From Bacteroidota bacterium (GTDB lineage: Bacteria; Bacteroidota; Bacteroidia; Bacteroidales; UBA12077), in NCBI GenBank assembly GCA_020444275.1, contig JAHLLG010000001.1, positions 1,267,773 through 1,331,772 on the forward strand: a DNA stretch of 64,000 nt, given 5' to 3'. The notes below the pieces were generated by a model that saw only the letters and a program-made list of their open reading frames with translations, had not been told where the DNA came from and did no database searches. Shown one piece after another: positions 22,770-48,771 of this stretch; positions within the stretch are counted from its first letter, which is position 1, and each line of letters begins with the position of its first letter. Position numbers and translations under genes: made by a program.

Positions 22770-24122
22770 TTATCTAATTTTTCCAGATTTCGATAATAGT
22801 GACCATCCTTCCAGCCAGTTCGATCCGGTTGGATCAAAAGCACCTTTGTAGGTTACTGCATCGTACCAGTCGTCCGGGTATGATGCCAGGTTAGTTTCAA
22901 CATCGCCCGTCGGAATAACATCGTAATCTGTTTCTGTTATGCTAATACCCGGATCAATAATCTCGTTTTGAGCCGTTAAAAAATAATCTTGTAACGCTTC
23001 TTGCTGCACAGTTAATGCATCGCCTGATACGTTAAATGCTGACAGAATATTGGAGCTAATATTGTTTTCTATCTGGTAAAAAATATTATTTTCAAATACA
23101 AGGTTTTCGTTCGCAAATTGGGTGTAACTGTCATTAACTCCATCGATGTACTCAATTTCAATTCCAGCAATTTGATTTGTAAAAATAGAGTTGTAATATT
23201 TTCCTCCTGCATCATCAGAAAATACCATTAGGTTTGACGACTGAAGCTGACCGTTTCCGATATATGTCGCATTGTAAATTTCAGGAATACAATATGGCTC
23301 GCCATAAACCGGATTGGTTCCTCCATCATGCTCGGCCAAATTATCGCCTAAAGCTGGAGCTTGTATGGCTAACCAAAATTGTCCTTTGCCCCGGTAGCCT
23401 TCGTCAAAGTCGAAAGCATCATCGCCACAAAAAGCAGCTGCAAGATATTTACAATTCACGGTTCCTCCGAAAAACTCAAAACCATCATCCAGGTTAGAAA
23501 TTACCTCAACATATTCTATGGTTGTTCCAGAACCTACTCCACCTAAAGTAAGCCCATTAATTTCATTATTTTCTCCAATATTGGTTCCACCATGCCTTAT
23601 TGATACATACTTTAATATTCCTGAGTTGTCGTTGTTTACTGATCCACCATAAATTCCTCTTGTTTCAGATAATGGAATGCCTTCAATTTTAGATTCGTTA
23701 AACTCACTATTTAACTGTGCATTTCCTAAAATAATTAAACCACCCCACAGTCCGCGGGATTCGATCGGAACAGAACCTTCCAGATCATCACCTTCAACGG
23801 TAAATATGATAGGATTTTCAGGAGTTCCTTCTGCAATAATTTTTGCTCCACGCGAAATAATTAAAGCACTGGCATTTTCACCCTGTCCGGTTTTTGCTCT
23901 AATAACTGTTCCTGGTTCAATCGTGAGTGTCTGCCCTGGATTAACAAATACAAATCCTTCTAACATATAGTCCTCATCAGCTGTCCAGGTTACATTTCCA
24001 ATGCCGGATCCGTCGTCAACAACTCTTTTGGTATTATCTACAACGATATCACTTTTACGGCATGATAATAGCGTTAAAGCTATTAAGAATGATGTAAGGA
24101 TTATGTGTGCTCTAATTTTCAT
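22770..24122 (-). CDS. Beta-helix lipoprotein (copy 1), paired with porin
   Basis: A 450-residue lipoprotein. The start at 24122 (MKIRAHIILTSFLIALTLLSC) gives a good lipobox (LLSC), and an upstream in-frame start would spoil it. The body has short repeating beta strands of a right-handed beta-helix: QTLTIEPGTVIRAKTGQG, ALIISRGAKIIAEGTPENPIIFT, RGLWGGLIILGNAQLN, GILKYVSIRHGGTNIGE, NEINGLTLGGVGSGTTIEYVEV, DDGFEFFGGTVN. It lacks a pectinase catalytic triad that I can see. It is often mislabelled as a transporter. It starts 10 bp after the porin gene, so both share the Pho-like box at 25201. A paralogue at 31728 is paired with a TonB receptor. Probable role: surface or periplasmic substrate binding. 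Confidence 0.82.
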   Translation of the reverse strand: MKIRAHIILTSFLIALTLLSCRKSDIVVDNTKRVVDDGSGIGNVTWTADEDYMLEGFVFVNPGQTLTIEPGTVIRAKTGQGENASALIISRGAKIIAEGTPENPIIFTVEGDDLEGSVPIESRGLWGGLIILGNAQLNSEFNESKIEGIPLSETRGIYGGSVNNDNSGILKYVSIRHGGTNIGENNEINGLTLGGVGSGTTIEYVEVISNLDDGFEFFGGTVNCKYLAAAFCGDDAFDFDEGYRGKGQFWLAIQAPALGDNLAEHDGGTNPVYGEPYCIPEIYNATYIGNGQLQSSNLMVFSDDAGGKYYNSIFTNQIAGIEIEYIDGVNDSYTQFANENLVFENNIFYQIENNISSNILSAFNVSGDALTVQQEALQDYFLTAQNEIIDPGISITETDYDVIPTGDVETNLASYPDDWYDAVTYKGAFDPTGSNWLEGWSLLSKSGKIR

Positions 24123-24132
24123 AATCAGGATA

Positions 24133-25143
24133 TTAAAATTTGTATTCAAGATTTAAATAAAAATAGGATTCGTTTTCAAGATTCTTTGCATATGGATACC
24201 AATCCTGGTAGTTGGCAGCAATTTTTACATTTTTGATTGGTTCAAACTGAATGCCACCAATTAAAGCACTGCCATCTTTGAAAATATTCCATTGATTCTT
24301 TTCGCCTTCAATAGTGTTTGACCATAACCTGTCATATCTGGCAAAAAGCTCCCATTTTTTTAAAATATCATACGAAACATAGCTGGAAAAACCATAAAGA
24401 TCATGATCTGAATCGTACTTATTATTAACCTGATAGTTATATTCAGCACCAACTTTTCCAATATTTTTTAATTTATAACCAATAAAACCTGTCCATGTTG
24501 TTTGTATTTCAGTTTGCTCAGTATAGTCTACATAAAAACGAGTGGTTAACCCTTTGATTGGTAAAAAAGTTATTCCAAATCCTGTTTTATACGCATTGTC
24601 GGTTTGCAACTGATTATAGCCTTCACCATTCATAACTGTTAAATCTGCAGAGATTTTATCGTGAATTTTATAGCTTATGGATGCTCCCAAATCGGCACTT
24701 GCTCCAAATTTATGTTCATCCATAAATGATTTATAGATATAGCGATGACCCCAAAATTTTTCCTGAATTTTAAACTGATACAAATCGATTAACCCAAAGC
24801 TAAGAGTAAGCTTATCTTTTGAATAGATTAACGCTGCATTTTTAAAATAGGCGTATCGTTTTAAAATGTCGTATGACGATTCCTGGTTAGGACTACCAAT
24901 ATCTAATTTTAAATTAATTGTAAAATTCTCAGAAAGTAAATGTTCATAACCAATATAAGCTCTTTCTACTGCAAATGCCGATTCATTTTCTTCGGCAAGT
25001 TGGTAATGGAAATTGCTAAAAATTTTACCATAAACTTTACCCGAAGGTGTAAAAGTAGTTTGTTCCTCCTGGGAATAGAGTTTTATAGAAAAAAATATCA
25101 GCAATGCTGAGAATAATAGAAAAATGCGCTGAATATTATTCAT
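24133..25143 (-). CDS. Outer-membrane porin, phosphate-selective OprO/OprP-like
   Basis: A 336-residue protein. MNNIQRIFLLFSALLIFFSIKLYSQ is a signal peptide (start at 25143; a longer frame to 25179 is less likely). The mature part is a beta-barrel: GKVYGKIFSNFHYQL, AFAVERAYIGYEHLLSENFTINLKLDIG and alternating strands to the terminal aromatic FYLNLEYKF. The ERAYIGYE..l pattern with a lysine-rich early strand resembles the OprO/OprP and short Bacteroidota porin families. Substrate choice cannot be proved from sequence, but a periodic TTAA(C) box lies directly upstream and the region holds other phosphate genes. It is first in an operon with the beta-helix lipoprotein. Confidence 0.78.
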   Translation of the reverse strand: MNNIQRIFLLFSALLIFFSIKLYSQEEQTTFTPSGKVYGKIFSNFHYQLAEENESAFAVERAYIGYEHLLSENFTINLKLDIGSPNQESSYDILKRYAYFKNAALIYSKDKLTLSFGLIDLYQFKIQEKFWGHRYIYKSFMDEHKFGASADLGASISYKIHDKISADLTVMNGEGYNQLQTDNAYKTGFGITFLPIKGLTTRFYVDYTEQTEIQTTWTGFIGYKLKNIGKVGAEYNYQVNNKYDSDHDLYGFSSYVSYDILKKWELFARYDRLWSNTIEGEKNQWNIFKDGSALIGGIQFEPIKNVKIAANYQDWYPYAKNLENESYFYLNLEYKF

Positions 25144-25200
25144 TCTTTTAAACAAATTAGAAATTAAAGATGTCCGCAATAATACGTAGAATTAAAATTG

Positions 25201-25227
25201 TTAACATTAAATTAATGTTAAATTAAG
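25201..25227 (-). promoter_or_regulatory. Candidate Pho box upstream of porin/beta-helix operon
   Basis: On the minus strand two exact 11-bp units stand head to tail: TTTAACATTAA and TTTAATGTTAA, preceded by a further TTAA in phase. TATTATTG (25184-25177, one mismatch to TAnnTTTG) is placed 26 bp from the TTAA of the last unit. 11-bp direct repeats are the geometry bound by PhoB-type regulators. Confidence 0.55.
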
Positions 25228-25360
25228 AAAAAAAATATGTAGGCTTAACATACGAAGCTCCAAAATTTCATGGATTTTTTGTTTAATCAAGAATAAGATT
25301 CATTTTTTATATGTTTAATGATTTGATTATATTTACCTTATACAAAAAGAAATATAAAGA

Positions 25361-25615
25361 ATGAATAAGTCAAAAACGACGATCTTAATCATTATCTTTT
25401 TCCTACTGGGTGCTCTGGTCGATCGTGCATTTTTGTATTACGAACAAGGAGAACGTAACAAAATGTTGTTAAGGGAACAAGAATCTATTAAAGAGGATTA
25501 CCAGATGTTAATCAGAAAATTTGAATATGTTGAAAAAGAGCTCAAGCTAAGAATGATGATGGATTCGTTAATAAACGATTCTATTTATACCGATACTTCT
25601 TCTGATAATTCATAA
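25361..25615 (+). CDS. Small membrane-anchored coiled-coil protein, unknown function
   Basis: An 84-residue protein: Lys-rich start, one membrane helix (TTILIIIFFLLGALVDRAFLYY), then a charged helix (EQGERNKMLLREQESIKEDYQMLIRKFEYVEKELKLRMM) predicted to form a coiled coil, and an acidic/Ser tail. I do not recognise the family. It diverges from the porin operon and precedes another small unknown gene by 52 bp. Confidence 0.6.
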   Translation: MNKSKTTILIIIFFLLGALVDRAFLYYEQGERNKMLLREQESIKEDYQMLIRKFEYVEKELKLRMMMDSLINDSIYTDTSSDNS

Positions 25616-25667
25616 GCATTACCTATTTTTGTTTACATATACTATTTTCGGATTTAAAGATTTTACA

Positions 25668-26153
25668 ATGAAAGCAGCATCTGTAAAAGAGATAAGAGAT
25701 GAATTAAAAGCTCGTTCTCCTAAAGAATTATTAGAGTATTGTCTTCGATTATCACGCTTTAAGAAGGAGAACAAAGAACTTTTAACCTACCTTTTATTTG
25801 AAATGAGTGATGAGGAAGCCTATATAAAAAGTGTAAAAGAAGAGATTGATGAACTATTTAATAATGTGAATCGTAAAAGTTACTACTATATAAAGAAAAG
25901 TGTTCGGAAAATTTTATCAGTTACCAAAAAATATATCCGCTATTCGCAGAAAAAAACAACGGAAGTGGAATTGCTAATCTATTTTTGTATCAAACTAAAA
26001 AGTTTTACTCCATCCATAAAACATAACATAGCTTTACGAAATATTTACCTCAGGCAAATCGATTTTCTAAAAAGTAAGTTTGCCGGATTACACGAAGATT
26101 TGCGCTTGGACTATGAGCGTGATATGGACGAAATAATTAATTATACTGCTTAA
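25668..26153 (+). CDS. Conserved hypothetical helical protein
   Basis: A 161-residue, soluble, all-helical and strongly charged protein: MKAASVKEIRDELKARSPKELLEYCLRLSRFKKENKELLTYLLFEMSDEEAYI, then Lys/Tyr-rich helices (KSYYYIKKSVRKILSVTKKYIRYSQKK) and DLRLDYERDMDEIINY. I place the start at the ATG at 25668 rather than the TTG at 25629, whose extension is hydrophobic and not conserved-looking. I recall similar short proteins in other Bacteroidota but know no function. A weak hairpin with T-run (26152-26175) overlaps its stop. Confidence 0.65.
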   Translation: MKAASVKEIRDELKARSPKELLEYCLRLSRFKKENKELLTYLLFEMSDEEAYIKSVKEEIDELFNNVNRKSYYYIKKSVRKILSVTKKYIRYSQKKTTEVELLIYFCIKLKSFTPSIKHNIALRNIYLRQIDFLKSKFAGLHEDLRLDYERDMDEIINYTA

Positions 26154-26175
26154 GGGAAGAAAGTTTTTTCCTTTT
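26152..26175 (+). terminator. Possible weak terminator overlapping stop codon
   Basis: AAGGGAA pairs with TTTCCTT (one G-T pair), followed by TTT. The stop codon of the preceding gene lies in the left arm. Modest stem, so low confidence. Confidence 0.35.
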
Positions 26176-26210
26176 AGTTTGAGTCAACGGCATTACGTTA
26201 ATTTAACGTA

Positions 26211-26243
26211 GGTAACACTAAGTTAATATAAAGTTAACAGAAA
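26211..26243 (+). promoter_or_regulatory. Candidate Pho box upstream of small secreted protein
   Basis: Three consecutive 11-bp units: GGTAACACTAA, GTTAATATAAA and GTTAACAGAAA. A perfect -7 element TACATTTG follows at 26282-26289, 48 bp from the last TTAA. No -33 TTTG stands at the normal distance, as expected of an activator-dependent promoter. Confidence 0.55.
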
Positions 26244-26328
26244 GATTATTGTTGCATAATATTCATATAATATTACCCCCTTACATTTGTAGCGTAAACA
26301 AAATCGTAAATAAAAAAAATATATAAAA

Positions 26329-26685
26329 ATGAAAAAGTTAGCAATAATCATCGTAAGTCTTTTGGTTTTCACTACAACTTTTGCAACAAATCATAACGAC
26401 GAAAGTGGAAAATCTGAGAGTGCAGTAATGACAACTTCCATATCAGGTAAAGTATTTGATAAGAGTACCGGAGAAGCTTTAGCAGGAGTAAAAGTGAGCG
26501 TTGCCGGAACGGAAAAAACAGTTTATACTGATTTTGATGGTAATTTTACGTTTGATGGAGTACGAGCAGGCGAATTAGAGCTTAAAGCTCAATACATTTC
26601 TTACGAACAAAAAGTAGAAACAGTTGATGTAAGTCTTTCAAAATCAAATACAGTTGATGTAGAAATTGAAAGTTTATCGAAGTAA
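26329..26685 (+). CDS. Small secreted protein with one carboxypeptidase-regulatory-like (CNA-B) domain
   Basis: A 118-residue protein with a signal peptide (LAIIIVSLLVFTTTFAT). It has a single beta-sandwich domain, SISGKVFDKSTGEALAGVKVSVAGTEKTVYTDFDGNFTFDGVRAGELELKAQYISYEQKVETVDVSLSKS-like, which is the same domain that begins TonB receptors, here alone without plug or barrel. The free-standing form could bind a surface partner or be a small periplasmic factor. It has its own promoter with an upstream TTAA(C) repeat box and a very strong GC-rich terminator, so it is a single-gene, probably well-expressed unit. Confidence 0.78.
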   Translation: MKKLAIIIVSLLVFTTTFATNHNDESGKSESAVMTTSISGKVFDKSTGEALAGVKVSVAGTEKTVYTDFDGNFTFDGVRAGELELKAQYISYEQKVETVDVSLSKSNTVDVEIESLSK

Positions 26686-26705
26686 TTCCAACAACATAAA
26701 TAGTT

Positions 26706-26735
26706 AAAATCCCGGGTTAACCCCGGGATTTTTTG
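26706..26735 (+). terminator. Strong intrinsic terminator
   Basis: AAAATCCCGGG (26706-26716) and CCCGGGATTTT (right arm, ~26722-26732) with a short TTAAC loop and TTTTTT. The GC-rich stem stands out in this AT-rich window. Confidence 0.88.
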
Positions 26736-26804
26736 TTTTATTACTTTTTTTGAATTCTTTACATTTCGTTGATATTTTATTATATTGCATTTAAAAATCA
26801 GTAT

Positions 26805-27506
26805 ATGGATAAAGCAAATCATATTATTCAAATTTTAAAGGAAAATCGTGATTTTATTGCGAAAATTGTCGATGTTGAATTGAATGATAAAAACGTTCAT
26901 GTTTTTGATTTATCAGATCAAAACACGGAATTATATGAAATTGATTTGGATAGTACAGAAGCTTTTAATGAATACATTTTTACTAAATTAAAGAAAGAAA
27001 AAAAGAAAGTTGGCGTCGGTGGATATTTTGAAGACCGCTTAATTTATAAGCGAAGTAAACATTTTGATAATGATGGAGAACCCAGAAGCATTCATTTAGG
27101 TATAGATATATGGACAGAAGCAGGAACACCGATCTATTGTCCTTTGCCAGGTGTGGTGCATAGTTTCAAAAATAATGAAACGTTTGGCGATTATGGTCCT
27201 ACCCTAATCTTAGAACATTTAATCGAAGGAGAAACGTTTTATACATTATATGGCCATTTAAGTGTTGATTCTATTCAGGATAAAGAAGTAGGGCAGCAGT
27301 TAAGGAGAGGAGATACCATTGCTTATTTAGGCGATGCCGATGTAAATGGACATTGGCCACCACATTTACATTTCCAGGTTATAACCGATATGCTTGGGAA
27401 TAAAGGAGACTTTCCGGGAGTGGCTCCGCCTTCGGCAAAGGAATATTATCATAAATTGTGCGTAGATCCAAATCTGATTTTAAAAATAGATAAATTAAAA
27501 AAATAG
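26805..27506 (+). CDS. M23-family (LytM) metallopeptidase-domain protein without signal peptide
   Basis: A 233-residue protein starting MDKANHIIQILKENRDFIAKI (ATG 26805). The LytM domain at about 90-210 has all Zn ligands: HLGIDIW (His and Asp), then GPTLILEH, TLYGHLS and HLHFQV (HxH). Family members cut peptide cross-links in peptidoglycan, but no export signal or membrane helix is present. A cytoplasmic place is odd for a cell-wall enzyme. The N-terminal ~80 residues (VHVFDLSDQNTELYEIDL) are not a known wall-binding domain. Leaderless M23 proteins do occur near or fused to aminotransferase/kinase domains in other bacteria. A shared terminator with the next gene lies at 27503. Confidence 0.85.
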   Translation: MDKANHIIQILKENRDFIAKIVDVELNDKNVHVFDLSDQNTELYEIDLDSTEAFNEYIFTKLKKEKKKVGVGGYFEDRLIYKRSKHFDNDGEPRSIHLGIDIWTEAGTPIYCPLPGVVHSFKNNETFGDYGPTLILEHLIEGETFYTLYGHLSVDSIQDKEVGQQLRRGDTIAYLGDADVNGHWPPHLHFQVITDMLGNKGDFPGVAPPSAKEYYHKLCVDPNLILKIDKLKK

Positions 27507-27530
27507 GCTCTTGAATTTAAGGGCCTATCT
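27503..27530. terminator. Bidirectional terminator between convergent genes
   Basis: ATAGGCTCTT (27504-27513) pairs with AAGGGCCTAT (27519-27528), nine of ten positions; A-run before and T's after. It overlaps the stop of the M23 gene. Confidence 0.6.
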
Positions 27531-27548
27531 GTTTTAAGTAGCTAAGTT

Positions 27549-28013
27549 CTATTTTGTGTAATCTCTTTTAGATGTAAGCTTGCCATTTTCATCGTATACC
27601 TTCCAGATTCCGGTTCTTTCTCCCTGGCTGTATTTCATTTCATAACGCAATGTGCCGTTATCATCCCAAACATACCACATACCATCTTTTTTCCCTTTAT
27701 TGTAGTTGGCTTCAGCAAGTTTAACTTTTTTCTCGTTCCACGTTTCCCACGTTCCATGCATTAATCCTGTCTTGTAGAAACGTTTTTCGTTTAATGTTCC
27801 ATCTGAGAAATAGATTAGCGTTTCACCGTCGTACTCGCCATTTATTAAATTTGCTTTAGCCTTTATTGTACCATCATCGAAAAATTCGGTATATTCTCCA
27901 GTATATAAATTATTTGATTTATCGTAGAATTTACCGTCCTTATTAACTAATTCCTGTGAAAAAGAATTTGAATATAATAATATGGTAAACAGGCATATAA
28001 AAAGTTTTTTCAT
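27549..28013 (-). CDS. Secreted MORN-like repeat protein (copy A)
   Basis: A 154-residue protein with a signal peptide (LFICLFTILLYSNSFSQ) and about five 22-24-residue repeats of the MORN/YwqK type: GEYTEFFDDGTIKAKANL, GETLIYFSDGTLNEKRFY, GTWETWNEKKVKLAEANY, GMWYVWDDNGTLRYEMKY and GIWKVYDENGKLTSKRDY. The repeats form stacked beta-hairpins, usually binding or structural. It is a close tandem paralogue of the gene at 28193 (the central two repeats are nearly the same). Databases may label such proteins as YwqK antitoxin; nothing here supports a toxin-antitoxin role. Confidence 0.82.
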   Translation of the reverse strand: MKKLFICLFTILLYSNSFSQELVNKDGKFYDKSNNLYTGEYTEFFDDGTIKAKANLINGEYDGETLIYFSDGTLNEKRFYKTGLMHGTWETWNEKKVKLAEANYNKGKKDGMWYVWDDNGTLRYEMKYSQGERTGIWKVYDENGKLTSKRDYTK

Positions 28014-28146
28014 GTTTCTTTATCTAAAGGATTATATTAATATTCCTCCAAATATACGTATAAATTAACTCAGAGTTACTTTGAAGAAGATAACTAACAT
28101 AATATGTTGAATTAAAAGATTGGGTTCACTAGAAGATAGGGAGGAG

Positions 28147-28180
28147 TAAAAAAAGAGCCTTGATTTTTCTCAAGGCTCTA
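28147..28180 (-). terminator. Intrinsic terminator between the two MORN-like genes
   Basis: On + AGAGCCTTG (28154-28162) pairs with CAAGGCTCT (28171-28179); an A-run at 28147-28154 gives a U-run in the minus transcript. It ends the transcript of copy B. Confidence 0.85.
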
Positions 28181-28192
28181 AATTACGTAGTA

Positions 28193-28660
28193 TTATTCAG
28201 TGTATTTTTTTTCTCCAATCAGAACTCCTTTTTCGTTATACATCTTCCATGTTCCTGATTTTTCACCTTCTATATAATGCATCTCATAACGAAGTGTTCC
28301 GTTTTCATCCCAAACTAACCATTTACCGTGTTTTTTACCAAAATTGTAATTGGCTTCGGCAAGTTTTACTTCCAGTTCGTTCCAGGTAATCCAAGTCCCA
28401 TGCATTTCTCCCTCTTTATATGAACGTTGTTCATTTTGAATTCCATTTTCGAAATAAATATTTGTAATGCCATCCTGGATACCATCCTTTAAGCTCATTT
28501 CAACACGAATGCTTCCATTGTCAAAATATTCCTTGTAAATTCCAGAAAAAGGTTCCTGGTTCTTATCTATGTATTTCCCGTCCTTTAAAGTAAGTTCTTG
28601 TGAGAATATATTTGTTACTGCTACAAAAAATATAGTTGCAGATATAATTAAAGTTTTCAT
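28193..28660 (-). CDS. Secreted MORN-like repeat protein (copy B)
   Basis: A 155-residue paralogue of copy A: signal peptide MKTLIISATIFFVAVTNIFSQ (start at 28660; a longer frame begins with an unlikely extension), then repeats GIYKEYFDNGSIRVEMSL, GITNIYFENGIQNEQRSY, GTWITWNELEVKLAEANY, GKWLVWDENGTLRYEMHY and GTWKMYNEKGVLIGEKKY. Each copy has its own leader and copy B its own terminator, so they are a tandem duplication with independent expression rather than one operon. Mature proteins are probably periplasmic or surface-exposed; function unknown. Confidence 0.82.
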   Translation of the reverse strand: MKTLIISATIFFVAVTNIFSQELTLKDGKYIDKNQEPFSGIYKEYFDNGSIRVEMSLKDGIQDGITNIYFENGIQNEQRSYKEGEMHGTWITWNELEVKLAEANYNFGKKHGKWLVWDENGTLRYEMHYIEGEKSGTWKMYNEKGVLIGEKKYTE

Positions 28661-28728
28661 TTTATTATTTATTATAGTAGTACTAAATATCATATTCCTA
28701 ATAAAGTACTATTGTTATTATTAATTAT

Positions 28729-31629
28729 CTAGAAATTGTATTTCAGACTAATACTATAACTTCTACCTTTTTCCAGTAATTCATAGTATTGATCTTGCGC
28801 TCCATAAGCTTGGTAAACTTTTTCACTTTTATTATTTAAGATATTGTTAACTTTAATACCCAATCCAATTCCATTAAATTCTTTGTTAAGTGTAAAGTTC
28901 AAACTATGAAATGGTAAGGTGTAAATATCAGGTTTACTGGCCATACCAACAATAGTTAGTGTTTCTCCCTGAACATTATAAAATAACCCTGCTTGAAGGT
29001 TTTTCCAAATACCATCACTTGTACTTCCATTATACAGCAAACCTGCATTAATTACATATGGAGATAATCCTGCAAGAGAACGGGTTTTATCTACAGATTC
29101 TCCTACACGCGCATTTAGTAGTCTGGATTCATATTCAGTTTGAGTTAACTCAATCTCAGAATATGCATAAGTGAAATTGGAATTAACACTAAAGTTTTCA
29201 AATCTATGTCCTAAGAATGATAATCCTTGGCGGAATTCAAATTCTGCTCCGTAAACTTCACCATCACCAACATTACGTGGCTGGATTTGGGTTTTTTGTG
29301 TGGTAGCAAATTGTACCATTTCTATGGGATTAAGGAACTGTTTATAGAAGCCGCTTAAAGATATCATTTGGCCTCGTTCGTGAAACCATTCCCAACGTAA
29401 GTCAAAATTATGAACAGATGAGCTCTTTAGATCTCCATCCCAAAATACAACATAATTACCTTCAATGTCATATCCTTTATCATCTGCTAAACCACCAATA
29501 AAAGTTACTCCACTAACCGGATCAAAAATCTGAGCATATGAAAGTTCCTTAAGCGATGGTCGAGCTATTGTTTTGGAGTATGAAACTCTAATATTTTGTT
29601 CATCAGATAGACTGTATACTAAATTAACAGCAGGAAATATATCAAAGTCATCTAATACTTTATCATTTTCAAAAACTTTAGTTCTCGACTGATCAGAACC
29701 AGTGTAGCGTTGAGTATAATTTTCTGCTCGTAAACCAATTACTGATTTTAGTTTTTTGAGGATATTTAATTCACCAGAAACATATACTGCAGCATAGTTT
29801 ACATTAGCATCATATTGATTGGTATTTACCGGAATAAAGTTTGCATCATAAGCTATACCGTTTTGTGGATCACCTAAATAAGGCCATAAATTTTCTTCGT
29901 AAAACAGTTCATCAGGATTTCCAGTTAAATTTGTCATATTTCGCACATTAATTGAATATGTAAATACATCAAATTCACGATCTTTATATGTGTAAGCACC
30001 ACCAAATTTTAATTTAGCATCTTCGCCTTTAAACGTGAACTTTCTGGTAACATGGAATACTCCTCCCAGGTTTATTTCATTCAGATCTCTCCAGGTTCTT
30101 TCAGGAAATCCGGTTTCTGTACCAATTTCTAGGCCTGTACTACGATATACATATCTTGTAAATCTATTATCGGGATCTTCTATTTTTGAAAGAGTGGGTG
30201 ATAACTTCCACAATACCTCCCAGTTTGATTCTATTTTTTTGTGTTTACCTTCAATAAACAGATTGGTTAATGATCTTTGTGTATATTCCAATACATGCTG
30301 ATAGGCAGTGAACGTCGTACCACGATCATCGCTTACAAAATCAAATATTCCTGCACCAGATTCTCCATTTTGAAGGTGAATTAGATTAATTCTATATTTT
30401 GAGTGTGCAGTTTTTACCGCAAATCCAGCTAATCCGCTTAGGAACACATTATTTTTACCAAGTGGTCCGTTTGATAAGTTGTCAGGATTCAATTCTGTTA
30501 TGGATTTGTCTCCTAATTGACTGTATTTGCCATATTTTGCATTCTCGTAAAATTCTGTTTCGTTTTTATATGATAAAGCAAAATTATAACCAATGGTAAC
30601 TTTTTCGCGTACCTTTTGATTACCAAAACTTACTCCTAAACCATAGTTCATTAAGCTTTTCTCTTTAATAGCCGACATATTAGGATTAAAACCTTCAAGT
30701 ATTTCTCTATAGCGAAGTCCTTGCTCGCTCTCCGGATCCATGAAAACCTCTGCAAACTGAGGAATGTTAGAAGTAGCAGGTGCATCTCGGCTTCCATCAT
30801 CAAACCCTAAAAAATCAGTAGAACCACCTTCATAGGTTAAGTAGTTATCCTTAAAATGAAAATTAGGGTTATATCCTGCAGAAATGGATATGTTTCCTTT
30901 TTTTTCTTCAGGGAAGTCTTTTAATTCTATATCAACTGCACCACCCGTAAAATCTGCCGGTAATTCGGCACTAAATGTTTTATGAACAATTATGTTGTCA
31001 ATAATATTTGTTGGAAATATGTCCATTTGTATGGTATTTCGATCAGGATCTAAACCAGGAACATCTACACCATTTAGAATTGTTTTTGTATAACGATCTC
31101 CTAAACCTCTTACATACACATATTTTCCGTTTGAAACAGAAACACCGGTTACTCTTTTTATTGACGAGGCAGCATCTGAGTCGCCTGTCCTTCTTAAACT
31201 GGCAGCGGAAATACCATCAAAAACATTCGGTGACTTATGCTTTAAAGCAAGTAATGCAGTTTCTGTATTTCTTACAGCTTTGGCTGTTACTACTGCACTT
31301 GCAATTTCAAAAGTAGCTTCTTTTAACCCCACATCGTTTATAAGTGTTACTTCCTCACTTTCAACTTTTAATCCCTCCATTACAACAGTTTCGTAAGATA
31401 TAAATGATATCTTTAAATTATATGTCCCTGGTGCTACCTTTAAATTAAATTTACCATCAAGATCAGTTATAGTTCCATGAGAAATGGACTCGATATAAAT
31501 GGTAACTCCCGGAAGAAATTCTCCTGTGTTTGCATCATAAACTGTTCCTCTTATGGTTCCACTTTGAGCATATGCCAGAATACCAGCAAATAAAAAGAGA
31601 GGTAGGAGTATTGATTTTAATTTATTCAT
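28729..31629 (-). CDS. TonB-dependent outer-membrane receptor (beta-helix lipoprotein partner)
   Basis: A 966-residue receptor. A signal peptide (SILLPLFLFAGILAYAQ) precedes a CarboxypepD_reg-like domain at about 22-110 (GTIRGTVYDANTGEFLPGVTIYIES...). The plug has GDSDAASSIKRVTGVSVSNGKYVYVRGLGDRYTKTILNGVDVPGLDPDR, and a long barrel ends in YSISLKYNF. The RVTGVSV..GKYVYVRGLGDRY plug type is found in SusD-less receptors. It is downstream of the beta-helix lipoprotein gene by 98 bp with a hairpin in between, so it may be expressed as the attenuated distal gene of a Pho-controlled operon. Substrate is inferred only: a phosphorus-containing compound or its chelate. Confidence 0.88.
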   Translation of the reverse strand: MNKLKSILLPLFLFAGILAYAQSGTIRGTVYDANTGEFLPGVTIYIESISHGTITDLDGKFNLKVAPGTYNLKISFISYETVVMEGLKVESEEVTLINDVGLKEATFEIASAVVTAKAVRNTETALLALKHKSPNVFDGISAASLRRTGDSDAASSIKRVTGVSVSNGKYVYVRGLGDRYTKTILNGVDVPGLDPDRNTIQMDIFPTNIIDNIIVHKTFSAELPADFTGGAVDIELKDFPEEKKGNISISAGYNPNFHFKDNYLTYEGGSTDFLGFDDGSRDAPATSNIPQFAEVFMDPESEQGLRYREILEGFNPNMSAIKEKSLMNYGLGVSFGNQKVREKVTIGYNFALSYKNETEFYENAKYGKYSQLGDKSITELNPDNLSNGPLGKNNVFLSGLAGFAVKTAHSKYRINLIHLQNGESGAGIFDFVSDDRGTTFTAYQHVLEYTQRSLTNLFIEGKHKKIESNWEVLWKLSPTLSKIEDPDNRFTRYVYRSTGLEIGTETGFPERTWRDLNEINLGGVFHVTRKFTFKGEDAKLKFGGAYTYKDREFDVFTYSINVRNMTNLTGNPDELFYEENLWPYLGDPQNGIAYDANFIPVNTNQYDANVNYAAVYVSGELNILKKLKSVIGLRAENYTQRYTGSDQSRTKVFENDKVLDDFDIFPAVNLVYSLSDEQNIRVSYSKTIARPSLKELSYAQIFDPVSGVTFIGGLADDKGYDIEGNYVVFWDGDLKSSSVHNFDLRWEWFHERGQMISLSGFYKQFLNPIEMVQFATTQKTQIQPRNVGDGEVYGAEFEFRQGLSFLGHRFENFSVNSNFTYAYSEIELTQTEYESRLLNARVGESVDKTRSLAGLSPYVINAGLLYNGSTSDGIWKNLQAGLFYNVQGETLTIVGMASKPDIYTLPFHSLNFTLNKEFNGIGLGIKVNNILNNKSEKVYQAYGAQDQYYELLEKGRSYSISLKYNF

Positions 31630-31665
31630 AAAACGTTAAATCTTAAATTGTTATTTAAATAGTTT

Positions 31666-31697
31666 AAACCCGCATTCAAAAAATAGAATGCGAGTTT
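31666..31697 (-). terminator. Hairpin between beta-helix lipoprotein and TonB receptor genes
   Basis: AAACCCGCATTC (31666-31677) pairs with GAATGCGAGTTT (31686-31697), 11 of 12 positions. There is no clear U-run in the minus transcript, so it may be an attenuator or mRNA-stabilising stem rather than a full terminator, letting some transcription run into the receptor gene. Confidence 0.5.
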
Positions 31698-31727
31698 AAT
31701 ATTGAAAAACTAATATTTGTGTATCAC

Positions 31728-32945
31728 TTAAAATGCGTCTCTTACACCAGCGAATGTCCAACCATTAAAAACTGAGGTGTTAGCACCAACTGTAGCGGTA
31801 GTAACTTCAGTTAATTCAGAAGCTTCAGTAGAAGCAGCAATGTCTGCAAAATAATCAGCAGCCACAGGAGCAACATCTGGAGTATCTTCATCGTCGTCTA
31901 AGTCTACTGGAGTAACATCGAATTCGAAGTTAGAAATAACGAAGTTGCCGTTTGAGTTGTAATCATTCTCAGTACCTGTTGCATCAGTAATCTTAGTAAA
32001 GAATACATTCATTACTTTAGCGTCTGTGTTATCATCATCATCGTAACCACCACCACAAGATTCCATGTATACAGTTACATTTTGAATAGTGTGACCAGCT
32101 CCTTCGTAATCACCTTCAGGACCGTCTAATTCGAAAGCTTTGTCACCAGGATTAATAACTAGTGCATTGTCAAGAGTTCCAGCCCAAGCTTGGTCTGTAT
32201 CAATAGCATCATCACCGTTATTCCATACTAAGATGTTAGAAACATTAACTGTTCCTCCAAAGAATTCAACTCCATCATCTTGGTTAGCAACGATTTCAAT
32301 ATTCTGAATAGTTGTTCCTGAACCAACACCACCTAATGTTAATCCGTTAATTTCGTTACCTTCACCAATGTTTGATCCACCATGACGGATAGATATATAC
32401 TTAAGAACACCAGAATTATCAGTAGCATCATTTCCACCATATTTTCCATTTTCATCATCAGCAGGAATACCTTCAATAGAAGCTTCTGTTCCGTTAGATT
32501 TTGGAGAAATAGGAGCATTTCCTAATACAATAAGTCCACCCCAAAGACCATCTACGTCGTCAGCCATTTCGCTATCGATTTCAGTTGGCTCAATTTCATC
32601 AGCAACACTTGTAAAAATAATAGGCTCATTTGCAGTACCTTCAGCCATAATTTTTGATCCGCGAGCAATAATTAAAGCGGTAGCATTTGTACCTGTACCA
32701 GCATCACCTTTTACAATAACACCAGGTTCAATGGTTAAAGTTGCACCATTCGTAACAGCAACACGAGATTTAAGATAATAAACATTACCAGTTTCCCAGG
32801 TAGTGTTTTCAGTTATATCCGCAGATATATTAAATTGATCAGTAGTGTTATTGTTTGAACCTTCATCATCGTCATCGCATGATGTAAAACTAATAGTTAA
32901 AGCAGCTAAGATTGCTGCAGTTAATTTTAAATAACTTTTTTTCAT
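31728..32945 (-). CDS. Beta-helix lipoprotein (copy 2), paired with TonB receptor
   Basis: A 405-residue lipoprotein. The start at 32945 gives the signal MKKSYLKLTAAILAALTISFTSC and a following acidic linker (DDDDEGSNNN). The core closely matches copy 1 at 22770: ATLTIEPGVIVKGDAGTG, ALIIARGSKIMAEGTANEPIIFT, GLWGGLIVLGNAPIS, GVLKYISIRHGGSNIGE, NEINGLTLGGVGSGTTIQN, DDGVEFFGGTVN. A right-handed beta-helix is expected. The sequence is very acidic (DDDDNTD, DLDDDEDTPD), compatible with Ca2+ or cation-bridged ligand binding. It has a TTAA(C) repeat box upstream and the TonB receptor gene downstream. Likely a surface-side substrate-binding partner of that receptor; not a transporter itself. Confidence 0.83.
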   Translation of the reverse strand: MKKSYLKLTAAILAALTISFTSCDDDDEGSNNNTTDQFNISADITENTTWETGNVYYLKSRVAVTNGATLTIEPGVIVKGDAGTGTNATALIIARGSKIMAEGTANEPIIFTSVADEIEPTEIDSEMADDVDGLWGGLIVLGNAPISPKSNGTEASIEGIPADDENGKYGGNDATDNSGVLKYISIRHGGSNIGEGNEINGLTLGGVGSGTTIQNIEIVANQDDGVEFFGGTVNVSNILVWNNGDDAIDTDQAWAGTLDNALVINPGDKAFELDGPEGDYEGAGHTIQNVTVYMESCGGGYDDDDNTDAKVMNVFFTKITDATGTENDYNSNGNFVISNFEFDVTPVDLDDDEDTPDVAPVAADYFADIAASTEASELTEVTTATVGANTSVFNGWTFAGVRDAF

Positions 32946-33026
32946 TGTGAAATTCATTTTTAGATTTATTAAATTTTTGATCATTTTCGATTGAAATTTT
33001 ATACTGCAAATATGAATGTTGTTATG

Positions 33027-33062
33027 TTAAAACTTATTAAGAGCGTTTTAATCTTACGTTAA
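33027..33062 (-). promoter_or_regulatory. Candidate Pho box upstream of beta-helix lipoprotein/TonB receptor
   Basis: On the minus strand: ATTAACGTAAG, ATTAAAACGCT, CTTAATAAGTT, then TTAACATAAC; TTAA steps of 11, 11 and 10 bp. CATATTTG (33014-33007, one mismatch to TAnnTTTG) follows 26 bp from the third TTAA. Confidence 0.55.
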
Positions 33063-33084
33063 TAAATAGCATACTATTTTTTTT

Positions 33085-33117
33085 CTTAACTTTATCTTAA
33101 AGTTGATTTAAACATAT
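33085..33117 (+). promoter_or_regulatory. Candidate Pho box upstream of response regulator (autoregulation)
   Basis: Three 11-bp units in exact phase: CTTAACTTTAT, CTTAAAGTTGA, TTTAAACATAT. A -7-like TATCTTAG (33145-33152, one mismatch) lies 37 bp from the last TTAA. Back to back with the minus-strand box at 33027-33062. Two small inverted repeats follow in the leader: CTTATAC/GTATAAG (33118-33137) and ATCTTA/TAAGAT. Confidence 0.55.
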
Positions 33118-33182
33118 CTTATACTTGGGTGTATAAGATTATTGTATCTTAGCTACTTAAGATCAAAACAAAATTTACAACA

Positions 33183-33881
33183 ATGAATACGAAAGATTAT
33201 AAAATACTTCTTGTGGATGACGAACCGGATATTCTTGAGTTTCTTAGCTATAATATAAATAAGGAAGGATTCGAGGTGTTTACAGCTTCAAATGGAAGAG
33301 AGGCAATAGATAAAGCCAAGAAAGTTAATCCACATTTAATATTATTGGATGTGATGATGCCGGAAATGGATGGTATAGAAACGTGTGAGCTATTACGTCA
33401 GGATAAAAAATTACAAAACACAATTATTGCATTTTTAACTGCCCGGGGTGAAGATTACTCGCAAATAGCGGGTTTTGATGCAGGTGGAGATGATTATATC
33501 ACGAAACCTGTTAAACCAAAAGTATTAGTAAGTAGAATAAAGGCCTTATTAAAAAGATTTAAATCTGTTGATAGTAACGAAAGTCAAGAAAACAATTCAA
33601 TCATAAAACAGTCAAATTTGGTAATCGATAGGGAAAGATATATTGTAATTAAAGACGGAAACGAATTAGTTTTGCCAAAAAAAGAATTTGAACTGCTTGT
33701 TTTGTTAATTTCAAAGCCAGACCGGGTATTTACTCGCGATGAAATCTTTAGTTCTGTTTGGGGTGACAATATTATTGTTGGTGATAGAACTATAGATGTT
33801 CATATCAGGAAATTAAGAGAAAAAATTGGTGATGAGCATATTAAAACAATAAAAGGGGTAGGATATAAATTTGTAGATTAA
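33183..33881 (+). CDS. OmpR/PhoB-family response regulator
   Basis: A 232-residue two-domain regulator. The receiver has KILLVDDEPDILEFL (acidic pocket DD), LILLDVMMPEMDG (phospho-acceptor Asp near 56), FLTARGED (Thr/Ser switch) and ITKPVKPK (Lys). The C-terminal winged helix runs from about 140 with LPKKEFELLVLLISKPDRVFTRDEIFSSVWGD and DRTIDVHIRKLREKIG...IKTIKGVGYKF, the standard PhoB/OmpR DNA-binding module. The 11-bp repeat box in front suggests it controls its own gene and its neighbours. No histidine kinase gene is adjacent; a PhoR-like partner must lie elsewhere. PhoB identity is inferred from boxes and the PiT neighbour. Confidence 0.87.
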   Translation: MNTKDYKILLVDDEPDILEFLSYNINKEGFEVFTASNGREAIDKAKKVNPHLILLDVMMPEMDGIETCELLRQDKKLQNTIIAFLTARGEDYSQIAGFDAGGDDYITKPVKPKVLVSRIKALLKRFKSVDSNESQENNSIIKQSNLVIDRERYIVIKDGNELVLPKKEFELLVLLISKPDRVFTRDEIFSSVWGDNIIVGDRTIDVHIRKLREKIGDEHIKTIKGVGYKFVD

Positions 33882-33903
33882 GAGTTTAATTAAATTATAA
33901 GAA

Positions 33904-33932
33904 AAAGCCCGACAAATTTTTGTCGGGCTTTC
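33904..33932. terminator. Bidirectional terminator between response regulator and PiT transporter
   Basis: AAAGCCCGACAA (33904-33915) pairs perfectly with TTGTCGGGCTTT (33920-33931). Confidence 0.88.
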
Positions 33933-33950
33933 TGCTGTGGTAAATTCAAC

Positions 33951-36209
33951 TTATTTTTTAGATTTTAACTGATATTCCACAAAGTCTCTTTGCGACTTAA
34001 CCAGGTTAATAGATTGTAATAAGAAATTCTTGATTTCATTTAAAATACCTAAGTAAAGTACGCTATTTCGTGTGCCCGCTTCATTATGCTTAATACGCTT
34101 TATCTGTTTTTTGCGGCACGATTTAAGAATACCAAGTACATCTTGCTGCTTGTCTATCAGGTTCGGGATATTATCAAATTCGTTATTGTCGATAGTAAAT
34201 ATAATTGCATCAAATAGTTCGTTAATGTTGTCTTTAAGCTCATTTAGCTCTTTAATTTGAGCTTCTAATAGTGGCTTATGGTTATTATCAATATGGTCAT
34301 AACTTGGATTTGAGATAAATGTAAGGGCATGTGCCATTTCTCTCAAATAATCAATAACCTGAACATAATAGTGGCCGGTTTCTCCATCTTCTTCCTGAAG
34401 CTTAAGTAATGTATTATGAACATTGGCTTTTAAATATTTAGCATCAGCATTTAGTTTATCAACTTCTTTGCAAACAGCTTTTAGTGCTTTTCGATCTTCC
34501 TTAGTCAGTCCGTCAATAGTTCCTGAGAAGACAGTAGTAACTGCTTTAAGCATATTTCTAACTTCAAGCGAGCATTTGGTCATTATGTTTTTTGCATGTA
34601 AATCTTCATCAGCAAGTCGTTTAATCTTTCTTGTTTCTGATTCCTTTTTCTTAAATGAAGCATGTGTTCTTATTACAGTGTAGAGTGCAACTAAAGAAAA
34701 TGCAGTAATTGCAATTGCACCTCCCCAGCTTATTATTGTTGCGATAATAAAAGCCACGGTGAAAGCTGTAATGGCTGTCATAAACCATCCGCCAATTACA
34801 GTAACTACACCAGTTATACGGTAAACAGCACTTTCTCTTCCCCAGGCCTTATCAGCTAGTGAAGTACCCATTGCAACCATAAATGTAACATAAGTTGTTG
34901 ATAAAGGAAGCTTTAAGGATGTTGCGAAAGATATTAATACACTGGCTACAACAAGGTTTACCGATGCTCTAACCATATCGAAAGATGGAGCATCTTTCAT
35001 GCCTTTTAATTTCTTCTGGTATTCTGTATCATCGAATCTTTTATTTAATGATTCTTTGAGTCTTTTTGGTGTTATATTATCAAAAAACTTACTAGTATCT
35101 ACAGCAGCTCTAACTAATGTTCTGGAAAGCATGCTTGATCCAAATCGCTCACTTCCTGCACTCTGTCTACTTAAATCAAGTGAAGTTTTTACTACAGAAC
35201 GAGCTTTTTTCGATAACCATAAGGTTATAATCATAATTACTCCAGCAATAAGAAGTAAATAAGTATTTGCTTTTGCTTTTCCTGTTAGGGCAATCATTAA
35301 AAATCCATCAGGATCTGCTCCTGGATTAGCAGTGAATGCCTGGAAAGATTTTAATCCTGCCAACGGAACACCAATAAAATTTACCAGGTCGTTACCTGCA
35401 AAAGCCATTGCAAGCGCAAATGTTCCAACTAAAACGATCACTTTAAGTATATCAAGTCGTACTATCCAATACAGGAGTTGGAGTAAAATGGTCCATCCGA
35501 TTAAACTATAACCTATAATTAGTGTTGAATTGTGTTTTATCCACTGGGTTGTTTCATCACTTAAAAACGATGATCCTTTAGCTCCTTTTACTAAAATAAA
35601 ATAAGTTATGGCTGTAATGGCAATACCTCCCCAAATAGCACCGTAACGCTTAAATGTTTTAGCATGATTAAAAGAAAAAACCAATCTGGTTAAATACATG
35701 ACAATTGCCCCGACCGTAAAAGCTACTACCACCGATAAAAGTATACCTGATATAATAGCCAATGCTTTAGCCGAATTGATATAATTTGCTAATTCACCGG
35801 CATCTTGTCCAAGTTTTATCATTTTTATTACCGCAACAGCAACAGCCGCTCCTAAAAGTTCAAAAACAATAGAAACTGTTGTTGATGTGGGTAATCCCAT
35901 GGTATTAAACACATCGAGTAGAACAACATCAGTGAGCATCACAGCAAGGAAAATGACCATAATTTCGGAGAAATAAAACTGGTCAGGATGAAAAATTCCT
36001 TTTCGGGCGACCTCCATCATACCACTTGAAAATGTTGCACCTATTAAAATACCTGCACTGGCAATAATCATTATGACATAATGTGGGGCTACCTTTGCTC
36101 CAATTGCTGAATTTAAAAAGTTTACGGCATCATTACTTACACCAACAATTAAATCGGAAATAGCTAATGCAAAGAGTAATACAACCAGAATTAGATAAAA
36201 ACTTTCCAT
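33951..36209 (-). CDS. PiT-family inorganic phosphate transporter with PhoU-like C-terminal domain
   Basis: A 752-residue protein. Two PiT signature repeats are visible: DLIVGVSNDAVNFLNSAIGAKVAP near residue 20 and FAGNDLVNFIGVPLAGL near 270 (the GANDxxN motif of Na+/H+-phosphate symporters). The matching GLPTSTTVS and KLPLSTTYVTFMVAMGTSLADKAWGRESA segments are present. From about 530 to the end the chain is soluble and helical (DLHAKNIMTKCSLEVRNMLKAV...YLREMAHALTFISNPSYDHID), resembling PhoU/DUF47 helices that regulate phosphate uptake or signalling. It moves phosphate across the inner membrane. A clean triple 11-bp repeat lies upstream on the same strand. Confidence 0.9.
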   Translation of the reverse strand: MESFYLILVVLLFALAISDLIVGVSNDAVNFLNSAIGAKVAPHYVIMIIASAGILIGATFSSGMMEVARKGIFHPDQFYFSEIMVIFLAVMLTDVVLLDVFNTMGLPTSTTVSIVFELLGAAVAVAVIKMIKLGQDAGELANYINSAKALAIISGILLSVVVAFTVGAIVMYLTRLVFSFNHAKTFKRYGAIWGGIAITAITYFILVKGAKGSSFLSDETTQWIKHNSTLIIGYSLIGWTILLQLLYWIVRLDILKVIVLVGTFALAMAFAGNDLVNFIGVPLAGLKSFQAFTANPGADPDGFLMIALTGKAKANTYLLLIAGVIMIITLWLSKKARSVVKTSLDLSRQSAGSERFGSSMLSRTLVRAAVDTSKFFDNITPKRLKESLNKRFDDTEYQKKLKGMKDAPSFDMVRASVNLVVASVLISFATSLKLPLSTTYVTFMVAMGTSLADKAWGRESAVYRITGVVTVIGGWFMTAITAFTVAFIIATIISWGGAIAITAFSLVALYTVIRTHASFKKKESETRKIKRLADEDLHAKNIMTKCSLEVRNMLKAVTTVFSGTIDGLTKEDRKALKAVCKEVDKLNADAKYLKANVHNTLLKLQEEDGETGHYYVQVIDYLREMAHALTFISNPSYDHIDNNHKPLLEAQIKELNELKDNINELFDAIIFTIDNNEFDNIPNLIDKQQDVLGILKSCRKKQIKRIKHNEAGTRNSVLYLGILNEIKNFLLQSINLVKSQRDFVEYQLKSKK

Positions 36210-36284
36210 TTTTTAATATTGTTTTAATTCGGGGTTAAAAGTAGATATACAATTGTTATGTGAATTGCTGTTTTATTTTAAATT

Positions 36285-36324
36285 TTAATTAAATCAATGT
36301 TAAATTAATGTTAACTAAGTTAAG
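36285..36324 (-). promoter_or_regulatory. Candidate Pho box upstream of PiT transporter
   Basis: The clearest of the five: on the minus strand GTTAACATTAA, TTTAACATTGA, TTTAATTAAAA in exact 11-bp steps, with another TTAA upstream. TACTTTTA (36243-36236, one mismatch to TAnnTTTG) lies about 49 bp from the last TTAA. Confidence 0.62.
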
Positions 36325-36503: not shown

Positions 36504-37019
36504 ATGAAGAGTTACGATGTTGTTGTCAATCATAAGGGATTTGTGAGTTTAGAAATTGTCGACACGATTTTACATGAATTAAAAACATATCTATATCATA
36601 AGCCGCACGACAAGTTAATGAGAAAAAGAGTTTATTCATTATCTGTTGAATGTCTAGACAATATCTTAAAACATTCCGATCTTAATGAAGAGAATCATGA
36701 GCTTCTTATTAACTATCCACCAAGATTTATTGTAGAAAAAATTGCTGATGATTATTTGATTCATACAGGTAACATTATTCTAAATGAAAATATAGATGAT
36801 GTTATTTTCAAATTAGAAAGATTAAATAAATTGGAACTGGAAGGTGTTAATCAGTTATACAAAGAGTCGTTAGCTAATGCGGAAATATCAGATAAAGGTG
36901 GTGCAGGCCTAGGTCTTATTGTAATGGCTAAAACAACAAGACAAAAAATTAGGTACGATTTTGAGAAAATTAACAAGAAGTTTTCTTATTTTGCAATGCA
37001 ATTAAACTTAAAAAAATAG
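36504..37019 (+). CDS. SiaB-family protein kinase (DUF6272, GHKL-type)
   Basis: A 171-residue protein. The N-terminal half (EIVDTILHELKTYLYHK...RVYSLSVECLDNILKHSD) carries an N-box-like ECLDNILKH and the end has SDKGGAGLGLIVMAKTTRQ, a GHKL ATP-lid G-box. In Pseudomonas SiaB phosphorylates SiaC, which then can no longer activate the diguanylate cyclase SiaD. A SiaC-family gene follows 10 bp later, confirming the pair, but neither a SiaA phosphatase nor SiaD is nearby. The role in Bacteroidota is therefore open; it may be a partner-switch for another target. Confidence 0.8.
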   Translation: MKSYDVVVNHKGFVSLEIVDTILHELKTYLYHKPHDKLMRKRVYSLSVECLDNILKHSDLNEENHELLINYPPRFIVEKIADDYLIHTGNIILNENIDDVIFKLERLNKLELEGVNQLYKESLANAEISDKGGAGLGLIVMAKTTRQKIRYDFEKINKKFSYFAMQLNLKK

Positions 37020-48701: not shown

Positions 48702-48771
48702 AAAGAAACGGTTTAAATAGACTGAATAAAGATACTAGATTTTTTATGATTAATCTTTATTTAAGGTCTAT

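Follow-up and report, generated by a model that had tools for sequence, protein, structure and literature searches.

Arrays of 11-bp TTAA repeats in a Bacteroidota phosphate island as probable Pho boxes of a PhoB-like regulator

Within 11.1 kilobases (kb) of the window studied here, that is, a stretch of 64,000 nucleotides from a Bacteroidota bacterium (assembly GCA_020444275.1, contig JAHLLG010000001.1, positions 1,267,773 to 1,331,772; window positions below count from its first letter), five arrays of direct repeats built on TTAA at steps of 11 base pairs (bp) stand in front of genes that include a PiT-type phosphate transporter and a PhoB-like response regulator. The question that this locus raises is what these arrays do and which protein reads them. 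We favor, with a probability of roughly 0.83, the hypothesis that they are Pho boxes of a Bacteroidota type, with the unit TTTAACATTNA, bound by the PhoB-like regulator encoded at 33183 (window genes are named by their first position). The arrays, with their scores by the matrix described below, are as follows.

25201..25226, minus strand: array A, between the porin gene (minus) and the small gene 25361 (plus); 21.5 bits, read on the plus strand
26212..26237, plus strand: array B, before 26329; units GTAAC/TTAA/TTAA; 18.2 bits
33037..33062, minus strand: array C, before the lipoprotein gene 31728; three TTAA at exact 11-bp steps
33086..33111, plus strand: array D, before the response regulator 33183; three TTAA at exact 11-bp steps; 18.8 bits
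36278..36314, minus strand: array E, before PiT; TTAACATTAATTTAACATTGATTTAATTAAAATTTAA on the coding strand; 34.4 bits, the best array

An initial annotation of this DNA had claimed five 11-bp-periodic TTAA arrays, and all five are present and, by sequence inspection, counts and shuffles, beyond chance; its consensus, (K/N)TTAAYATTNA, was nearly right, the unit on the PiT coding strand being the one given above. The arrays differ in regularity. Array A combines three in-phase TTAA with an interleaved TTAA set offset by 5-6 bp, array E has at least three in-phase TTAA and further ones out of phase, and array B shows the least regularity, with GTAA followed by two TTAA 11 bp apart and an out-of-phase pair upstream. 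The intergenic region of array E is common to PiT and a divergent gene (36504-37019), which could be a second target of that array; GTTA pairs at 11 bp lie upstream of 9 of the 11 orthologues of this gene.

The exact pattern TTAA-N7-TTAA-N7-TTAA occurs in 11 places of the 4.22-Mb genome (10 contigs), six of them within 25201-36314, an island that makes up 0.26% of the genome. A letter-reversed control pattern finds 10 places genome-wide, and a version with 10-bp steps finds nine, none in the 11.1-kb stretch. Of the six, two overlap each other within array E, and another, which overlaps the PiT -7 region (36213-36238), may be chance; excluding the latter and counting array E once, four of nine distinct places fall in the stretch, a clustering count that is post hoc because the stretch was chosen for its arrays. 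The five places outside are no commoner than the controls; hence, the signal comes from the island and not from general AT-richness. One of them (48750-48775) is the sole other exact three-unit TTAA array in the window and lies 49 bp before a gene for a 158-amino-acid flavodoxin (PF12724); no phosphate link was seen for it, and the matrix score of its region is low (7.0).

The matrix test, as opposed to the clustering count, is not post hoc. The matrix has 26 columns and was trained, without the window genome, on the PiT promoters of 12 relatives; one locus (L152) was left out of this test for overlapping the window, and the most distant PiT (L177) fell outside the training range. When 75 intergenic regions from the window and nine other stretches of its genome were scored, the four regions holding the five arrays ranked 1, 2, 4 and 5 (34.4, 21.5, 18.8 and 18.2 bits), and all remaining regions but one scored at most 11.8 bits. 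Rank 3 (19.0 bits) is the region before dnaA, from a stretch (L155) that had been picked for its motif match and therefore makes a harsh background for the ranking. Dinucleotide shuffles reached the observed score in 0 (A), 3 (B), 1 (C/D) and 0 (E) of 2000 cases, and changing the unit spacing to 9, 10, 12 or 13 lowered every array score, from 18.2-34.4 to at most 14.6 bits. The array-like match of the rank 3 region (G000:C9:691975-692000; L155 5976-6001) lies about 190 bp before dnaA (PF00308, 202.9 bits) and could be either a real site that links phosphate and replication or chance.

The arrays are also kept in relatives, before the orthologues of the regulator, PiT, porin, TonB receptor and 26329 genes. 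Upstream counts were made on orthologues in up to 20 relatives, the number varying by gene and the window genome being excluded, after dropping weaker matches, matches that start beyond query residue 40 and upstream regions shorter than 150 bases. A further genus/family set of 20, which likewise shows the array to be conserved, does contain the window genome. TTAA pairs at 11 bp precede all 13 PiT orthologues (TAAC pairs precede 12 of 13, with 0 at 9, 10, 12 or 13 bp), 17/20 regulator, 7/9 porin and 7/8 26329 orthologues, and 8/9 orthologues of 31728, which has its intergenic DNA in common with the regulator. The control genes show 1/11 (26769), 0/5 (25629) and 3/10 (28193). An alignment of ten PiT promoters, one from the window and nine from relatives, gives the commonest base at each position a frequency of 0.89 in array columns and 0.55 elsewhere. 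The most distant PiT, 36% identical, has no array within the 170 upstream bases inspected. Among more distant Bacteroidota (80 loci of a named-genome collection), GTTA pairs at 11 bp occur upstream of the regulator in 38 of 79 cases (0-2 at 9, 10, 12 or 13 bp); for the TonB receptor, 22 of 35 upstream regions contain a TAAC pair with the 11-bp spacing (0-1 at the same other spacings). Receptor and lipoprotein genes divergent from the regulator are found in Flavobacterium (L090), Maribacter (L066), Flagellimonas (L064), Kordia (L072) and Schleiferiaceae (L131), and three Aquimarina loci have PiT upstream of the regulator instead of receptor and lipoprotein.

If the arrays are operators for an activator, their distance from the promoter should matter. 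Promoters of Bacteroidota are of a type with the -7 box TAnnTTTG, and the earlier claim that such a box follows the arrays at helical-turn steps from a TTAA holds: with boxes chosen by hand among TAnnTTTG matches with at most one mismatch, the TTAA to -7 box distances modulo 11 are 4 (A), 4 (B), 4 (C), 4 (D) and 5 (E), that is, one helical face. The boxes are the following.

25177..25184, minus strand: -7 box candidate of the porin gene, TATTATTG; 26/37 bp from in-phase TTAA
26282..26289, plus strand: -7 box of 26329, TACATTTG; 48/59 bp from in-phase TTAA
33007..33014, minus strand: -7 box candidate of 31728, CATATTTG; 26/37/48 bp from in-phase TTAA
33145..33152, plus strand: -7 box candidate of the regulator, TATCTTAG; 37/48/59 bp from in-phase TTAA
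36236..36243, minus strand: -7 box candidate of PiT, TACTTTTA; 38/49/60/71 bp from in-phase TTAA

With the first box in this position, the porin would start not at the TTG at 25179 but further downstream, at the ATG near 25143. Second candidates exist for three promoters, out of phase for B and D (one each) and in phase for C, where it overlaps the array. The phase recurs in relatives, with 12 of 13 PiT promoters at 4 or 5 modulo 11, 7 of 9 promoters of 26329 at 4, and 11 of 20 close regulator promoters at 4. A porin gene is followed by pstS in five congeners (G003, G004, G006, G018 and G019). In each of these five operons, two TAACA spaced 11 bp apart precede the porin, and a CAnnTTTG box lies at a distance of exactly 26 bp from the first of the two units (phase 4), a count that depends on allowing T or C at the first -7 position; automated scoring that favored T there gave phases 3, 3 and 1 for three of the five.

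Which protein would read the arrays is suggested by the genes of the island and by the company that they keep in other genomes. The order along the island is 22770 (minus), 24133 (minus), array A, two small genes (plus), array B, 26329 (plus), gene 26769 (plus), two MORN-type proteins (minus), the TonB receptor 28729 (minus), 31728 (minus), arrays C and D, regulator 33183 (plus), PiT 33951 (minus) and array E. Its main genes are listed here.

33183..33881, plus strand: PhoB-like response regulator, receiver and winged helix (PF00072, PF00486), the putative array-binding protein
33951..36209, minus strand: PiT-type phosphate transporter with a PhoU-like C-terminal part
31728..32984, minus strand: lipoprotein-type protein, paralogue of 22770
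28729..31629, minus strand: TonB-dependent receptor downstream of 31728 (PF00593, PF07715, PF13715)
24133..25179, minus strand: outer-membrane porin-like protein, with a weak BBP2 match (19.7 bits; cut-off 26.2)
22770..24149, minus strand: second lipoprotein-type protein, after the porin, 48% identical to 31728 over residues 7-302 of 31728
26329..26685, plus strand: 118-amino-acid CarboxypepD_reg protein behind array B

The MORN-type proteins (27549-28013 and 28193-28693) accompany the receptor-lipoprotein locus in many relatives. The 33183 protein matches the receiver domain (PF00072, 100.7 bits) and the OmpR/PhoB-type winged helix (PF00486, 85.5 bits), both above cut-off, and is the best match of its genome to the NCBIfam PhoB profile NF053854 (219.9 bits; next-best 185.1). 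The named relatives of the protein suggest a Bacteroidota genome. In congener G018, the regulator adjoins an operon of porin, PstS, two ABC permeases, ABC ATPase, PhoU and PhoR kinase, with PiT next to it; there, PhoR scores 672 bits (cut-off 500) and PstS 354 (cut-off 205), and PhoU passes the Pfam cut-off but not that of NCBIfam phoU_full (107 of 130 bits). In congener G023, it stands beside PstS, two permeases, ATPase and PhoU (pstSCAB-phoU). The window genome has no kinase beside 33183; its PhoR orthologue (C7:689983-691752, L240; 61% identical, 676 bits) lies about 610 kb from the regulator, and no regulator gene was seen by eye within 1.5 kb on either side of it. That is, PhoR is an orphan here, and in some congeners it either adjoins the regulator or belongs to the pst operon; the pair was probably split in the window lineage. 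The best PhoB match, the presence of PhoR in the genome and a congener that combines regulator, PhoR, PhoU and Pst support, in part, the initial annotation's suggestion that the 33183 protein binds the arrays, including its own. Matches to 33183 in relatives fall into two groups, one of 60% identity or more and one of 49% or less, a distribution that may reflect a second PhoB type.

If phosphate is the signal, sites are to be expected before phosphate genes elsewhere, and tight matches provide one. With at most one mismatch, TTAACATTNATTTAACAT is found in two places of the genome only, at PiT and at C9:1032358-1032375, the latter (15.4 bits by matrix) 47 bp before a phytase gene on the same strand (C9:1031163-1032311), which is identified by Pfam PF02333 (280.7 bits) and has only a sub-cut-off phytase-like match in NCBIfam. 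A further candidate is a two-unit array before a nucleotidase gene that precedes phoA. The operon of these genes lies some 72 kb away from the regulator, and of 16 genomes, 7 have TTAA pairs at 11 bp upstream of it (vs. 0-2 for the other spacings). The check proposed earlier, for matches before phosphate genes, has given a tight match before the phytase gene and a weak site at the nucleotidase-phoA operon. Only tight matches are informative, since a pattern search with two mismatches is too noisy (32 places vs. 23 for the control). We inspected 19 loci outside the island, i.e., five with exact three-TTAA places, 13 with one or two mismatches and one three-mismatch place chosen for lying beside a Na/Pi cotransporter; 6 of the 19 sites are inside predicted genes, and a Pfam search of 20 neighboring proteins recovered two phosphate genes, the phytase and that cotransporter.

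From these observations we infer the binding protein, its phosphorylation by PhoR, the activation and the phosphate signal. Under the favored hypothesis, each 11-bp unit would bind one molecule of a PhoB-like regulator, in a head-to-tail series along a single face of the helix. Under phosphate limitation, the PhoR kinase would phosphorylate the 33183 regulator, which would then line up on two to four units and recruit RNA polymerase to a -7 box of the TAnnTTTG type that is in helical phase with them. The predicted targets in the island are the regulator itself (with array D as the putative site of autoregulation), PiT, 26329 and two gene pairs, namely the porin with lipoprotein 22770 and lipoprotein 31728 with the TonB receptor; those outside it would probably include the phytase gene and perhaps the nucleotidase-phoA operon.

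Several results weigh against this hypothesis. On the side of the protein, 33183 stays below the PhoB equivalog cut-offs, with 220.4 bits against 270 for NF053854 and 205.8 against 296.2 for TIGR02154, and four of its relatives (one from Flavobacterium) are likewise below cut-off for NF053854 (209.6-219.9 bits), which is why we call it PhoB-like; the neighboring kinase in two distant loci (L136, L104) is shorter and does not reach the PhoR cut-offs. On the side of the arrays, the score of the C/D region derives from D, array C alone reaching 8.5 bits on its own coding strand, the conservation counts come from related, non-independent sequences, and the distant regulator and TonB-receptor sets show no clear phase by a crude method. 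The sole plausible -7 box at the phytase site, TACATTTA, lies 32 bp on, at phase 10 and not 4. At the nucleotidase-phoA operon, TAAC pairs are found upstream in 0 of 16 genomes and the window genome's own matrix score is 3.0. Only 3 of the 5 congener porin-pstS operons reach 16 bits by matrix, and TAAC pairs at 11 bp occur upstream of 5 of 30 pstS-family genes (0-2 at other spacings), many of these genes being inside operons and one (L198) having taken a neighboring transporter open reading frame. The genome's own pst-like operon (C1:142534-146163) has no array upstream of its pstS-like gene (C1:145177-146163; best matrix score -4.7), and genome-wide matches to TTAACATTNATTTAACAT with three mismatches show no excess (112 vs. 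125 for the control). The pstS-like protein in question is itself below the PstS cut-offs.

On the enrichment at phosphate genes that the initial annotation expected of a genome scan, the results point both ways; because the pst-like operon is without an array and loose matches stand at control level, the regulon visible from sequence alone would be limited to the island, the phytase gene and perhaps the nucleotidase-phoA operon. The pst-like operons of the window genus have a different conserved element, TAAG(C/T)ATAAA(T/C)AC(C/T)TAC, which inspection by eye revealed ahead of the pstS-like gene in five genomes (L141, L205-L208; C1:146164-146340 in the window genome) and which may be the site of another regulator.

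Alternatively, the arrays might be bound by another OmpR-family regulator of the genome, with the 33183 gene being merely a target. Direct repeats of 11 bp are common in the OmpR class, and at least seven OmpR-type regulators of this genome score above 150 bits with the PhoB profile; in addition, the authors of work on the Riemerella PhoP motif compare that motif to the one of ArcA (PMC9603813). We nonetheless consider this alternative unlikely, given that the array is kept with the 33183-type regulator gene in many Bacteroidota, at the position for autoregulation and with neighboring genes carrying it too, and that the next-best regulator is 35 bits lower with the PhoB profile. A slightly less probable possibility is that the 33183 protein does bind the arrays and the signal is not phosphate, so that an envelope or other nutrient response would include the phosphate transporter incidentally. 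The unmet PhoB family cut-off, the lack of a kinase beside the regulator and the pst-like operon without an array would all fit such a response. Against it stand the congener that keeps the regulator with PhoR, PhoU and Pst, the phosphate responsiveness of a comparable Flavobacterium locus (PMC8115612), and the arrays themselves, with the strongest at PiT, others at congener porin-pstS operons and the best non-island match before the phytase gene.

Finally, the arrays could theoretically be ordinary AT-rich, UP-element-like promoter DNA that arose by chance in a region of 32% G+C, where TTAA is a common word and, genome-wide, loose matches occur at control frequency. This explanation is contradicted by the spacing specificity (11 vs. 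10 bp, and across 9-13 bp), the clustering in 0.26% of the genome and the conservation above that of the flanks, and seems to us extremely improbable. We favor the hypothesis of Pho boxes read by the PhoB-like regulator 33183. A broader proposal, that PhoB-like regulators across the phylum read tandem TTTAACATTNA arrays whose orientation is the reverse of that of the E. coli Pho box, and that they act at a variable but helically phased distance (26, 37, 48, 59 or 70 bp to the -7 box), tied to the promoter type of the phylum and with a regulator chain on one DNA face contacting the polymerase rather than a fixed -35-proximal dimer, is a tentative one that we regard as possible but rather doubtful.

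Bacteroidota of many habitats scavenge both phosphate and organic phosphorus, and it is by expression that their phosphate response has been mapped so far. While the Pho box as a kind of element is already known, what is useful here is the definition of the present box, together with its distribution over Bacteroidota and its phasing relative to the -7 box. That is, a conserved array with unit, orientation and phasing would provide a searchable operator for Bacteroidota, would allow phosphate genes to be predicted among outer-membrane receptors, porins, lipoproteins and phytases, and would make helical phasing with the Bacteroidota -7 box cleanly testable at a promoter.

It is important to compare these arrays with the systems that are already known. 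The E. coli Pho box consists of 11-bp direct repeats with CTGTCAT, bound head to tail by an OmpR-class regulator (PMC4415409). The arrays described here have 11-bp direct-repeat units as well, and the reverse complement of the unit is TNAATGTTAAA, with TGTTA one base from TGTCA; they differ in the core (TTAACA/TGTTAA vs. CTGTCAT) and in the promoter, which is of the TAnnTTTG type, and have two to four units. If TGTTA is equated with TGTCA, the units here face the promoter in the orientation opposite to that of E. coli. The Bacillus subtilis PhoP box has TTAACA-type direct repeats at about 11 bp; that system differs from the present one in phylum and promoter type.

Within Bacteroidota, the PhoP two-component system of Riemerella anatipestifer is reported to be upregulated in phosphate starvation, and PhoP binds the promoter of its own operon, with TTTAACA as the most conserved letters of its DAP-seq motif (PMC9603813). 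The motif, the own-promoter site and the phosphate link liken it to the system proposed for the window; in its cited passages, that account stresses virulence and redox genes and a likeness to ArcA and describes no 11-bp array or phasing (PMC9603813). In Bacteroides fragilis, PhoB (BF1576) binds a 512-bp pstC promoter fragment in gel shifts and is needed for pstC expression at low phosphate; unlike the present arrays, no defined box is given in the cited part of that work (PMC3547664). An open-licence literature search found no defined Bacteroidota Pho box beyond the Riemerella motif. The PUSIV locus of Flavobacterium johnsoniae comprises phoBR, OprP, a TonB receptor and the FII lipoprotein, with PhoB, receptor and lipoprotein Pi-induced (Pi, inorganic phosphate) and with OprP and PhoR, which are in the operon, not significantly changed in the expression table; the main text of that paper contains no mention of a Pho box or of a promoter (PMC8115612). 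The window locus differs from it in having PiT in place and no kinase alongside. The two loci are alike in a PhoB-type gene near a TonB receptor and a lipoprotein, a close gene set in which the position of 31728 resembles that of the FII protein (PMC8115612), and the full arrangement of receptor, lipoprotein, regulator and kinase is present in named Flavobacterium loci.

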